Positions 7,944 through 16,375 of a stretch of 42,462 nucleotides of DNA are shown piece after piece. Position 1 is the first letter of the stretch; each line of letters opens with the position of its first letter. This stretch comes from Bacteroidota bacterium (GTDB lineage: Bacteria > Bacteroidota > Ignavibacteria > UBA10030 > UBA8401). Both the position numbers and the translations under genes were made by a program. The stretch lies in the NCBI GenBank assembly GCA_030679145.1, contig JAUXTU010000035.1:1-42462 (forward strand). The letters run 5' to 3'. Under the pieces are notes generated by a model. That model was given only the letters and a program-made list of their open reading frames with translations. It did no database searches and was not told the origin of the DNA.

Positions 7944-8225
7944 ATGAAATACTACATTTATATACTTTCCAGTAATCGCAACGGTACTCTATATATCGGA
8001 GTTACCAACAACCTCCGCCGAAGAATGGAAGAACATAAAACAAGATCAATTCCGGGTTTCACAAAGCAATATAAAGTTCATCTATTGGTTTATTTTGAAG
8101 AGTATAATGATATACGAGATGCAATAGTTCGTGAAAAAAGGTTAAAGAAATGGGAAAGAGAATGGAAATTAGAATTGATTGAGTCAATAAATCCAGAATG
8201 GAAAGATCTAACTGAAGAACTTTAA
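7944..8225 (+). CDS. Single-domain GIY-YIG endonuclease-like protein
   Basis: The protein has 93 residues starting at the ATG at 7944 (MKYYIYILSSNRNG). A longer reading from 7911 would translate the left repeat and is rejected. The fold's hallmarks are present: YIY at 4-6 in place of GIY, LYIGV at 16-20, arginines at 25-27, and Glu64 in REKRLKKW as the metal ligand of the family. Small free-standing GIY-YIG proteins of this type are related to UvrC-type and homing nucleases and most have no assigned role. The basic EKRLKKWERE segment suits DNA binding. Here the gene is bracketed by inverted palindromic repeats, so it may nick or process the repeat itself; that is inference. Confidence 0.88.
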   Translation: MKYYIYILSSNRNGTLYIGVTNNLRRRMEEHKTRSIPGFTKQYKVHLLVYFEEYNDIRDAIVREKRLKKWEREWKLELIESINPEWKDLTEEL

Positions 8226-13693: not shown

Positions 13694-13954
13694 TTATTCC
13701 AAGGGAGCAATTTTATTCAGTTTTTCTCTGTTTAAAGCGTGCTGCCATTCAGAATGCAATTCGTTTTGATGAAGAGATGCCCATTCAATAACGAAACCCA
13801 ACACTCTCGAAGGAAGTTTACCGTCAATCAATTTGAGATCTTCAATATTAACCTTTGCACGATGTTCATTGTACTCAACGTGAAAATGCGGCGGGGTATG
13901 ATCATCATAGAACATTCGGATAACTACTCCGAAAAAACGACTTATCTCAGGCAT
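13694..13954 (-). CDS. DUF4160 protein, possible toxin-antitoxin-like pair member
   Basis: This 86-residue protein has the DUF4160 pattern: PEISRFFGVVIRMFYDDHTPPHFHVEY near the start (residues 2-28), with the conserved HTPPHFH block, then RVLGFVIEWASLHQNEL in the second half. The histidine-rich block could bind metal or be catalytic. DUF4160 genes very commonly sit next to DUF2442 genes, as here, where the start overlaps the DUF2442 frame by eight bases. The pair is often suggested to be a toxin-antitoxin or phage-defence-like module, but no activity has been established that I know of. Both genes are complete. Confidence 0.82.
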   Translation of the reverse strand: MPEISRFFGVVIRMFYDDHTPPHFHVEYNEHRAKVNIEDLKLIDGKLPSRVLGFVIEWASLHQNELHSEWQHALNREKLNKIAPLE

Positions 13955-14231
13955 TGATTGATTCTTTCTTCAATGACGGAAAAATATCTTCAGGTTTCTT
14001 TCCGGTGATTCGTAAATACATTGCTTCAGAATCAATATCCACTTCATCACTCCACGATAATTCACCTGAAGAACCAATCCGAACATTCTCAAATTTTTTG
14101 GGATCGTTCCATAATTCGAACACGCCTTTTCCAACATGTGAAGAAAAATCAACTTCTCCTTGAACACCATCACTGTATTTCAACAATAAGCGGTAATTTG
14201 GCTTTGGTTGTACTTCAATCAGTTTCATCAT
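13947..14231 (-). CDS. DUF2442 protein
   Basis: The 94-residue protein matches DUF2442: an N-terminal beta-rich half (YRLLLKYSDGVQGEVDFSS) followed by VFELWNDPKKFENVRI and the characteristic ELSWSDEVDIDSEAMYLRITG. It is the first gene of a two-gene unit with DUF4160, overlapping it by eight bases. The unit sits between serA and a tRNA-like gene, a typical landing site for small accessory modules. The biochemical role is unknown. An alternative start one codon downstream is possible. Confidence 0.82.
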   Translation of the reverse strand: MMKLIEVQPKPNYRLLLKYSDGVQGEVDFSSHVGKGVFELWNDPKKFENVRIGSSGELSWSDEVDIDSEAMYLRITGKKPEDIFPSLKKESINA

Positions 14232-14285
14232 TCATCATCCATTTTTACTGCATCTTACCAAAAAAGTATGCGTTTGTCAATATTG

Positions 14286-14396
14286 TGAGCACGAAGGGAT
14301 TTGAACCCTTACGACCTCTTGAGTCAGCAACTTGCTAACTTCAATTTTCATTGAACTTAGCAAGGTTACAGCGTCTGCCAATTTCGCCACGTGTTC
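14286..14396 (-). tRNA. tRNA-Leu-like gene with a 26-nt surplus hairpin in the anticodon loop
   Basis: Read on the minus strand, everything but the anticodon loop fits a class II tRNA-Leu. The acceptor stem is GAACACG/CGTGCTC with an A3-C70 mismatch. The D-arm is GCG..CGC with TTGG in the loop. A 5-bp anticodon stem, GTAAC (14365-14369) with GTTGC (14327-14331), is followed by a variable arm GACT-CAAGA-GGTC and a T-arm AAGGG-TTCAAAT-CCCTT. The anticodon loop is 33 nt (14332-14364) instead of 7 and folds into its own hairpin: TTGCTAA pairs with TTAGCAA and TTCAAT with ATTGAA around GAAA. Without 26 nt the gene would be 85 nt, the normal length. No anticodon can be assigned. No CCA is encoded. 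It may be a pseudogene, an interrupted tRNA or a tRNA mimic. Confidence 0.6.
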
Positions 14397-14411
14397 TATA
14401 TTAGTTGGCAA

Positions 14412-14435
14412 TCCGATTGTTTTCATACAATCGGA
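14412..14435 (-). terminator. Hairpin just after dnaK
   Basis: TCCGATTGT (14412-14420) pairs with ACAATCGGA (14427-14435) around a six-base loop, beginning 12 bases after the dnaK stop. There is no T-run, so termination is uncertain; it may mark a processing point between dnaK mRNA and the tRNA-like gene 16 bases further on. Confidence 0.5.
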
Positions 14436-14446
14436 CTGCACAGTGA

Positions 14447-16375
14447 TTATTTATCATCCATGACTTCAAAGTCAGCATTTTCAACTTTCTTTCCACCCTC
14501 TGCATTTCCGCCTGCGGAAGATTGCTGTTGTTGCTGCTGTCCACCTGGTTCTGCACCGGGTTGAGGTCCCGCTGTTTTTGCCGCTTCATACATCTTCGTT
14601 GAAGCATCGTTCCAGATCTTGTTCAATTCATCCATCTTTTCTTTGATACCGGAATTTGCTTTGATCGCTTCTTCAAGCGAGGTCGCCGCAGATTCGATTT
14701 TTGACTTTGTTTCAGCATCCATCTTATCGGCGAGATCTGTCAATTGTTTGCGAGTAGAGAAAACGAGTGAATCAGCCTGATTCTTTAATTCAATCTCTTC
14801 TTTCTTCTTCGCATCATCTGCCGCATGTGCTTGCGCATCTTTCTTCATTTTATCAACCTCTTCCTTGCTCAATCCTGAAGAAGATGTGATACGGATATTT
14901 TGTTCTTTTCCTGTCGCTTTATCTTTTGCAGAAACTGATAATATTCCATTTGCATCAATATCGAGTGATACTTCGATCTGCGGAACGCCGCGCGGTGCCG
15001 GCGGAATTCCATCAAGATGGAATTTCCCAAGCGATCGATTATCAACTGCCAATGGTCGTTCACCCTGAAGGATATGAATTTCCACTGATGTTTGGCTATC
15101 TGCTGCGGTACTGAATGTTTCGCTCTTCTTCGTCGGAATTGTTGTATTTGCTTCGATCAGTTTTGTCAAGACGCCGCCAAGTGTTTCAATTCCTAACGAC
15201 AGTGGAGTTACGTCAAGCAAAAGAACATCAGTAACATCACCGGCAAGAACACCACCCTGAATTGCTGCGCCAATCGCAACCACTTCATCAGGATTCACTC
15301 CTTTATGTCCTTCTTTTCCAAAAAACTTTTTCACTAATTCCTGAACTGCAGGCATACGAGTCATACCGCCGACAAGAATTACCTCATCGATTTGACTGAT
15401 GTTGTATCCGGAATCGTTGATCGCTTTCTCTGTTGGTGTTAAGCATCGTTTTAAAAGATCATCGACCAATTGTTCGAACTTTGATCGAGCCAATGTCAAT
15501 GTAAAATGTTTCGGACCATCCTGTGTTGCCGTGATGAATGGAAGATTGATCTCGGTCTGCATGGATGAGGATAATTCGATCTTTGCTTTTTCAGCAGCTT
15601 CACGTAATCGCTGAAGTGCCATTGCATCTTTCAACAGATCGACCCCTTCTTGTTTCTTGAATTCTTCAGCAAAATACTCGACCAATCGCTGATCGAAGTT
15701 ATCGCCGCCAAGGTGTGTATCGCCATTGGTGGATTTCACTTCGAATACTCCATCGCCAAGATCAAGAACAGAAATATCAAACGTACCTCCGCCAAGATCG
15801 AATACAGCAACTTTTGAATTTTTATGCTTTTTATCGAGACCATATGCAAGAGCAGCGGCAGTCGGTTCGTTCACAATTCTGCGAACATGCAATCCGGCAA
15901 TCTCTCCCGCTTCTTTTGTCGCTTGCCGCTGTGCATCATTGAAATACGCAGGAACAGTGATCACTGCTTCTGTTACTTTCTGTCCGAGATAGTCTTCGGC
16001 AGTCTGTTTCATTTTTTGAAGGATCATAGCAGAAATTTCTGGAGGTGAATAGATGCGGTCGCCGATCTTCACACGGGAAGTGTTGTTTTCTCCGGTCACG
16101 ACTTCGTACGGAACAAGTTTCATTTCTTCGGTCACCTCGTTCATAAATCGTCCCATAAATCTCTTGATCGAGTAAACTGTATTCTTCGAATTCGTAACAC
16201 CCTGTCTTTTTGCAGATTGACCGACAAGACGTTCCCCATTTTTAGCAAATGCAACGATTGAAGGAGTTGTTCTTCCCCCTTCGGAGTTTGCAATCACAAC
16301 AGGCTCATTTCCTTCCATCACTGAAACAACGGAGTTTGTTGTCCCAAGATCGATACCTATAATTTTCCCAGCCAT
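14447..16375 (-). CDS. dnaK: Hsp70 chaperone DnaK
   Basis: The 642-residue protein begins with [18 protein letters not shown], the phosphate-1 loop of the actin-like ATPase domain, and contains [15 protein letters not shown] and [12 protein letters not shown] further on. The substrate-binding domain and lid follow, ending in a Gly/Gln-rich linker and the conserved-type acidic tail DFEVMDDK. Length and tail are normal for bacterial DnaK. It works with GrpE and DnaJ, not encoded here, and with ClpB, which is encoded nearby. A good AAGGA precedes the ATG. The 203-bp gap shared with divergent birA must hold both promoters. It contains an 11-bp palindrome (GACACTGTGTC, 16507-16517) but no CIRCE operator that I can find. 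Confidence 0.98.

Follow-up and report, generated by a model that had tools for sequence, protein, structure and literature searches.

The window, that is, the whole 42,462-nucleotide stretch of DNA analysed here, carries a tRNA-like gene on its minus strand, between dnaK and a pair of genes encoding DUF2442 and DUF4160 proteins. The features of the locus, in the order in which they are read on that strand, with their basis in brackets, are as follows.

14447 to 16375, minus strand: dnaK, the upstream neighbour (open reading frame, relatives)
14408 to 14439, minus strand: inverted repeat that separates dnaK from the tRNA-like gene and is likely the dnaK terminator; shared with the congener G003
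14281 to 14407, minus strand: approximately 127 nt, missing from the dnaK–DUF2442 interval of G003
14286 to 14396, minus strand: tRNA-like gene of 111 nt, its body being of the Leu type (class II); the discriminator, at 14286, is A, and CCA is not encoded (Rfam RF00005, fold, sequence)
14390 to 14396, minus strand: 5' strand of the acceptor stem, GAACACG, with A at position 3 opposite C70 (sequence, pairs)
14371 to 14387, minus strand: D-arm, GCGAAATTGGCAGACGC (sequence, four-row alignment)
14365 to 14369, minus strand: 5' strand of the anticodon stem, GTAAC (fold, pairs)
14332 to 14364, minus strand: 33-nt anticodon loop, forming a hairpin with a GAAA loop and the conserved ends CTTGCTAAG...GTTAGCAA (fold, alignment)
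14334 to 14359, minus strand: 26-nt stretch, the excision of which would leave a 7-nt loop, CUUGCAA, under a rival reading and only if the RNA is spliced (read from the sequence)
14327 to 14331, minus strand: 3' strand of the anticodon stem, GTTGC (fold, pairs)
14312 to 14326, minus strand: long variable arm, TGACTCAAGAGGTCG (fold, pairs)
14294 to 14310, minus strand: T-arm, AAGGGTTCAAATCCCTT (sequence, fold, pairs)
14287 to 14293, minus strand: 3' strand of the acceptor stem, CGTGCTC (sequence, fold)
14252 to 14280, minus strand: promoter-like TTGACA-17-TAAGAT, just downstream of the tRNA-like gene (consensus match only)
13947 to 14231, minus strand: DUF2442 protein, downstream neighbour (Pfam PF10387, 38 bits)
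13694 to 13954, minus strand: DUF4160 protein, downstream neighbour (Pfam PF13711, 73.4 bits)

The scanning of the entire window with 4227 Rfam families, at the gathering threshold, recovered a single match, the tRNA family RF00005 at 14396-14286 on the minus strand, with 33.0 bits against a cut-off of 29. The predicted fold contains the acceptor, D-, variable, and T-arms, and the anticodon stem continues into a nearly unbroken hairpin, in which TTGCTAA pairs with TTAGCAA and TTCAAT with ATTGAA, closed by GAAA. This fold has a minimum free energy of -37.1 kcal/mol (z -3.33), and none of 200 shuffled sequences was equally stable. The sequence-only reading had placed here a tRNA-Leu-like gene with a 33-nt hairpin as its anticodon loop, and had called for a tRNA covariance model to be run on it; the match and the shuffles show that its coordinates and anatomy are correct, while the A3-C70 mismatch which it described in the acceptor stem is real, as read in the sequence, and its placement of the gene between dnaK and the DUF4160/DUF2442 pair is seen from the open reading frames and Pfam. 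The A73 discriminator, a long variable arm, and a Leu-type D-arm are marks of the Leu tRNAs, and all three are present, as determined from the sequence and the alignment. At 2-71, the pair is A-U, as opposed to the G-C of the Leu(TAG) tRNAs in other families. A normal anticodon loop, in which U33 and an accessible anticodon would lie within 7 nt, is absent, its place being taken by the hairpin loop. When introns were disallowed, ARAGORN called no tRNA anywhere in the window, and when introns of 10-60 nt were permitted, over loci covering the window, it called the gene with a 26-nt intron and labelled it Ala(agc).

The genome to which the window belongs (3.83 Mb in 123 contigs, with a listed completeness of 100%) gives 46 matches to the Rfam tRNA family, one of which is the tRNA-like gene. 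A search for normal Leu tRNAs elsewhere in this genome, also proposed earlier, recovered the anticodons GAG, TAA, CAA, TAG, and CAG when ARAGORN was applied to the other 45 matches, and the window gene is, therefore, dispensable for the decoding of Leu. The hairpin is present in a single copy in this genome, with up to three mismatches allowed, which eliminates the possibility of a hairpin that is repeated or mobile on its own.

The congener G003 retains dnaK with its inverted repeat, as well as the DUF pair, and lacks the approximately 127 nt that contain the tRNA-like gene. A functional link between the gene and the DUF2442/DUF4160 pair was rejected, given that the pair occupies the same spot in G003 without the gene. 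In three other genomes (G004, G005, and G007), neither the tRNA-like gene nor the DUF pair lies directly after dnaK, and the distribution of the pair itself (13694-14231), which is downstream of dnaK in G003 as it is in the window genome, and not directly so in these three, points to a separate accessory insertion. The promoter-like element between the gene and the pair, the TTGACA of which is common to the window and G003, probably serves the DUF2442/DUF4160 pair, and no clear promoter belonging to the tRNA-like gene was found.

A blast search of 150 genomes with a 171-nt region found matches in 16, which are the window's own gene and 15 ordinary Leu(TAG) tRNAs, as identified by ARAGORN. A D-arm/T-arm pattern recovered no further copy from 391 genomes of the window's class, some of which are incomplete, its three matching genomes being that of the window, G096 (an N-gap artefact), and G257 (a different tRNA-like type). 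The 111-nt gene had no match in the phage and plasmid records, and the pattern combining a Leu body with a window-type hairpin matched 0 viral contigs. A pattern survey of a collection of 84,980 genomes returned 28 contigs, of which 13 (L208, L209, L213, L214, L216, L219, L221, L222, L224, L227, L230, L233, and L234) were dropped on reading as N runs, assembly duplications, or two adjacent tRNA pieces; the window-type hairpin was present in none of the remaining 15, four of which are Pedobacter loci of another tRNA-like type. The extended arm on the contig L218 (Polyangiaceae) is similar, with different letters and a 1-72 mismatch.

The search for the same hairpin gene in relatives, as the earlier reading had suggested, did succeed with covariance models, yielding at least three more genes among 395 genomes of the phylum. 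The model R1, which was built from the window gene alone, with the one sequence entered twice, and leans towards the window sequence, matched 135 of these genomes at E<=1e-6. Among the matches listed, the same architecture was found in G523 (111 nt, 85.1 bits), G420 (110 nt, 83.3 bits), and G574 (113 nt, 57.0 bits), while the other matches listed are 82-87 nt in length, as in ordinary Leu tRNAs, with a maximum of 63 bits. As the ordinary Leu tRNAs reach no more than 63 bits, G523 and G420 stand out by their scores, and G574 by its length and alignment. All three genomes belong to a single family, f37, which we take to be the Chlorobiaceae, as we take the order of the window to be UBA10030. A second model, R2, was built from all four genes, so that their own scores are high by construction, and genes with very different hairpin letters could escape it; over 86 genomes of f37, it singled out only the same three (122, 116.7, and 102.2 bits, with the next best at 63.3), as it did over 98 genomes of the class of G523 (3/98). 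A second draw of 395 genomes from the phylum, which overlaps the R1 draw and is not an independent sample, returned the same three and one 85-nt gene, in G448. With three carriers in the 86 genomes of f37 and an empty site in G003, the hairpin genes look accessory and sporadic.

The alignment of the four genes (window, G523, G420, and G574) is small, with two of its rows being close relatives, and has 95.8% of its paired cells filled by pairs, against 39.8-42.6% in the slid controls. Both sides have changed in 16 of the 36 pairs, the covariation score is 0.634, in comparison with a shuffled mean of 0.276, and not one of 500 shuffles matched the observed value on any of five measures. Judged from this comparison of sequences, the predicted structure appears to be under selection in the hairpin genes. 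The acceptor pair 2-71 of the window gene, for example, differs on both sides from that of the other three genes, and still pairs.

The letters at the base of the hairpin vary little, being CTTGCTAAG...GTTAGCAA in the window, TTAGCTAAG...TTTAGCAA in G523, CTTGCTATG...TTTAGCAA in G420, and TTGCCTAAG...CTTAATAA in G574, which breaks some pairs at the base while keeping U33, UAAG/CUUA, and AA. The window hairpin shares 21 of its 33 letters with G523 and 20 with G420, values reached by 24 and 161, respectively, of 200000 random hairpins, under a crude null with fixed ends and no correction for the way in which the matches were selected.

In G574, the gene is bracketed by copies of the 3' part of a tRNA-Arg(ACG), which are 14.6 kb apart and share 47 identical consecutive letters; a tyrosine integrase adjoins one of the copies. 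The stretch between them contains restriction genes of the HsdR and HsdM types, accompanied by a likely hsdS, and encodes an AAA_21 ATPase, together with AAA_25 and DUF6371 proteins. This gene is thus located inside a 14.6-kb integrative element that carries restriction genes. Of three proteins scanned in the flanks of the G523 and G420 genes, one is NYN/OST-HTH and two have no Pfam family. The contig of G420 ends 150 nt from its hairpin gene.

A related hairpin is found in a tRNA of a different identity. A scan of viral contigs for the hairpin ends, the letters of which were fixed beforehand in the pattern, matched at least 120 contigs, and in one of the 120 listed, L385, the match lies in a tRNA; when the T-arm was added, a second scan matched eight contigs, with L385 again the sole tRNA. 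This gene is a tRNA-Ala with G3-U70 and an encoded CCA (Rfam, 50.1 bits), and has four other Rfam tRNA matches within 2.9 kb. The hairpin is at the same place, and the loop without it, CUUGCAA, is the normal Ala(UGC) loop, which accords with the ARAGORN reading of the anticodon as UGC (Ala). The Rfam score of the window gene is the weakest of the five hairpin genes (33.0 versus 39.6-50.1 bits).

Other interrupted tRNAs were also encountered. Two contigs of Planctomycetota MAGs from the 28-contig survey (L210:138-247, minus strand, and L212:6074-6183, plus strand) have Leu tRNAs that are perfect except for a similar 26-nt hairpin insert in the anticodon loop, and would have a perfect CAA or UAA loop if spliced; the R2 matches read in the L210 genome include Leu TAA, CAG, and TAG, with no uninterrupted CAA among those read. 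The viral contigs L084 and L101 have tRNAs read as Leu(UAG) with 21-nt inserts, a reading with which ARAGORN agrees in the case of L084, while labelling L101 otherwise. These four genes have other letters and fall outside the hairpin family, and show that short inserts recur at the same spot.

Further tRNA-shaped sequences are common in the viral contigs. The long Leu-type pattern occurs in at least 120 of these contigs, and two or more tRNA shapes are present in 13 of the 115 viral loci that have such shapes. At L106:5644-6190 (plus strand) and 12 more viral loci (L085, L095, and L196, for example), class II tRNA shapes share a common acceptor, AGTCAGG/CCTGACT, and near-identical T-arms, with a middle that is different each time, a total length of 75-190 nt, and several elements in a row. 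A second type, represented by L514:2375-2473 (minus strand), L552, L564, and others (13 rows, 12 of them distinct), has class I bodies in which a conserved core, CTTCATGGTGAAGGACCAAATGCC..GAGGGTAAACCAAGCC-like, replaces the anticodon arm. The pattern that yielded this type gave 121 matches, of which 87 pass the acceptor and T-stem checks; the two tested in Rfam were matched by tRNA only, and no full-length match to the type was found in isolated-phage records. A looser set of class I tRNA-like genes (16 rows, 15 distinct) includes L515:8791-8903 (minus strand), L468:10535-10648 (plus strand), L584 (Aeromonas phage Ahp1_CNU-2021), and L585 (Erwinia phage Kaldavass), and is marked by a hairpin and a stretch resembling ACAGCAA, with an end that often resembles TAAGCCGT; the L515 gene was matched in four phage records over 80% of its length, with annotations, where present, of tRNA-OTHER/pseudo or tRNA-Lys. 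The viral contig L468 also has a match to the cyanobacterial-type tmRNA (7967-8218, plus strand, 116.4 bits), in addition to which Rfam finds 27 tRNAs there and, at 49.4 bits against a cut-off of 47, one tRNA-Sec. Four Pedobacter genomes (L207, L215, L223, and L229) have tRNA-like genes with a Leu-type D-arm, the loop TTGTCTC, and a long variable region, arranged as a tandem pair in three of the four loci, and similar genes are found in the MAG contigs L211 and L232, the viral contigs L235, L237, L238, L240, and L244, and the genome G257.

The predicted structure of the window gene, its recurrence with covariation, its sporadic distribution, and its carriage, in one case, by an integrative element are the observations to be accounted for, and the recurrence, together with the mobile-element case, points to a real and unrecognised kind of tRNA mimic, rather than a simple broken gene. 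The window gene may thus be a member of a small, sporadic, and mobile family of non-decoding tRNA mimics or decoys, which is the reading favoured here, tentatively and at something short of an even chance. The LeuRS is not known to depend on the anticodon, and with the Leu-type body maintained (acceptor, D-, variable, and T-arms, and A73), the RNA could still be handled as a tRNA-Leu by RNase P and the 3'-end enzymes, as well as by LeuRS and EF-Tu, while the locking of the anticodon loop in a long hairpin, the base of which has conserved letters, would make codons unreadable. We infer that the RNA would be transcribed, processed, and charged. Its most likely role would be that of a decoy, or of a replacement substrate, for an enzyme whose target is tRNA or the anticodon region, such as an anticodon nuclease in a conflict between phage and host or element and host, or else that of a stable tRNA-shaped scaffold displaying the hairpin. 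A tRNA bait or replacement would be a plausible cargo for elements engaged in conflicts with phages or hosts. Against the mimic, the nearest genes that were read are different at each of the four loci, the conserved letters at the hairpin base and the broken pairs of G574 at this point would also suit a processing site, as opposed to a passive hairpin, and the window copy carries the A3-C70 mismatch and lacks a clear promoter.

These last two features, together with the lowest Rfam score of the five genes and the failure to find the gene in the other genomes of the genus searched, would be expected if the window copy were a decaying relic of a mobile tRNA-like gene, inactive in the window organism, which is the second reading in order of probability, and an unlikely one, in view of the intact hairpin, T-, D-, variable, and anticodon stems, and the 2-71 pair, which differs on both sides from those of G523, G420, and G574 with its pairing kept. 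The sequence-only reading had included a pseudogene among its options, and this is disfavoured as the whole story by the recurrence of the hairpin, with compensatory changes, in genomes that are distant, while the mismatch still allows for decay of the window copy. It had also taken absence from close relatives as a sign of a pseudogene; the gene was indeed not found in the relatives searched, but this is not, by itself, proof of decay, given that the gene looks accessory and is element-borne elsewhere. Absence from close relatives would also follow from chance or an assembly artefact, an explanation that is hardly credible when three independent assemblies, including that of a single-contig genome, have the same kind of hairpin and architecture, with covariation across the four genes. 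A raw-read error in the window assembly, which had also been raised, would not account for the gene, given the presence of this kind of hairpin in three other genomes.

In the third reading, which is doubtful, and less probable than the relic, the hairpin of 26-30 nt between positions 36 and 37 is a short intron, excised by an unrecognised RNase or ribozyme, with the exons being joined to form a 7-nt loop. The enlarged loop begins with a pyrimidine-U and ends in AA in all five genes (window, G523, G420, G574, and L385), so that cutting in one register, chosen by hand, would produce a loop of 7 nt in which U33, A37, and A38 are all present. The best argument is provided by L385, a good tRNA-Ala in which removal of the hairpin would give the matching anticodon, UGC, and which supports an intron, although its hairpin-end letters were fixed by the search pattern, and it is the sole tRNA among the 120 contigs listed; the Planctomycetota genes on L210 and L212 would likewise have a perfect Leu loop without their 26-nt insert. 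The Leu-type bodies, by contrast, would carry UGC (window), AGC (G523), UGC (G420), and GCC (G574), which are anticodons of Ala or Gly on bodies without G3-U70. An excision of 26 nt that restores a Leu anticodon in the window gene fails, as the 7-nt loops read UGC or AGC, and UAG is obtainable, on a hand reading, only with an 8-nt loop. The ARAGORN placements are inconsistent (agc, agc, ttg with only 16 nt in G420, and gcc), and differ from the hand-chosen register in the window gene and G420. At the exon-intron borders, the folds, examined by eye, have a nearly continuous helix in the window gene and an internal loop in G574. A profile search found the tRNA intron endonuclease (PF01974) in none of eight genomes or records, with four archaeal controls positive, and RtcB (PF01139) in one of the eight, G523, the sole positive among the four bacterial hosts, with the window genome negative and 9/14 controls positive. 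The earlier reading had set aside both group I and archaeal bulge-helix-bulge introns, and both exclusions stand as far as tested, with no Rfam intron family matching the window, and with no match to the endonuclease in 8/8 genomes or records. A broader version, in which the hairpin represents an undescribed class of 26-30 nt introns, with its own excision and joining activity, distributed across Leu-type and Ala bodies in bacteria and phage, and silencing a potentially mistranslating tRNA in the Leu-type carriers, is distinctly improbable. Least probable of the intron-based proposals, and very much so, is a hairpin-locked tRNA that remains silent until the hairpin is removed or cut, and then inserts Leu at Ala codons as a mobile conditional poison; it agrees with the NGC (3/4) or GCC at positions 34-36 of the Leu-type bodies in the hand-chosen register, and with the restriction genes alongside in G574, but has no known remover or linked regulator in sight, and itself depends on the intron.

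If the genes are mimics, as is tentatively preferred here, a recurring and mobile tRNA shape without an anticodon would imply a user other than the ribosome, whether a tRNA-cleaving enzyme, a processing enzyme, or a synthetase, and the hairpin loci offer concrete places to ask whether bacteria and mobile elements use tRNA decoys. They also bear on whether any bacterium splices a short tRNA intron without group I chemistry, and proof of the intron reading would establish something categorically new. Default annotation can miss such genes, as ARAGORN does in the case of the window gene, and they are visible to Rfam only as weak to moderate tRNAs. In the literature searched, which leaves preprints and most subscription papers outside, no recognised account was found of the hairpin family or of short bacterial tRNA introns other than group I. 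The many tRNA-shaped RNAs in viral contigs hint at a broader class that has been read little.

Group I introns are hundreds of nucleotides in length, whereas the hairpin insert has 26-30 nt and no match to an Rfam intron. They occur in bacterial tRNA genes (Reinhold-Hurek and Shub 1992, as cited in PMC4090602), and have in common with the window gene an interruption of the anticodon region. The protein-spliced tRNA introns of archaea and eukaryotes, which, according to PMC4090602, are usually located one nucleotide 3' of the anticodon, are similar in being short inserts near position 37 that pair in part with the anticodon letters, but differ in that the hairpin hosts searched have no splicing endonuclease, and the hairpin has no clear bulge-helix-bulge motif. 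The tmRNA also has a tRNA-like end and a replaced anticodon arm, whereas the window gene keeps its D- and variable arms and carries only a short hairpin, and the Rfam tmRNA models have no match in the window. The tRNA-like genes of the Aeromonas phage Ahp1_CNU-2021 (pseudo/tRNA-OTHER) share a tRNA body with an enlarged middle, but have a class I body and another insert, the hairpin not being shared. The class II tRNA-Leu (RF00005), from which the window gene differs in the 33-nt hairpin that replaces the 7-nt loop, the A3-C70 mismatch, and the lack of an exposed anticodon, has the same acceptor, D-, variable, and T-arms, the same A73, and the same Leu-type D-loop.
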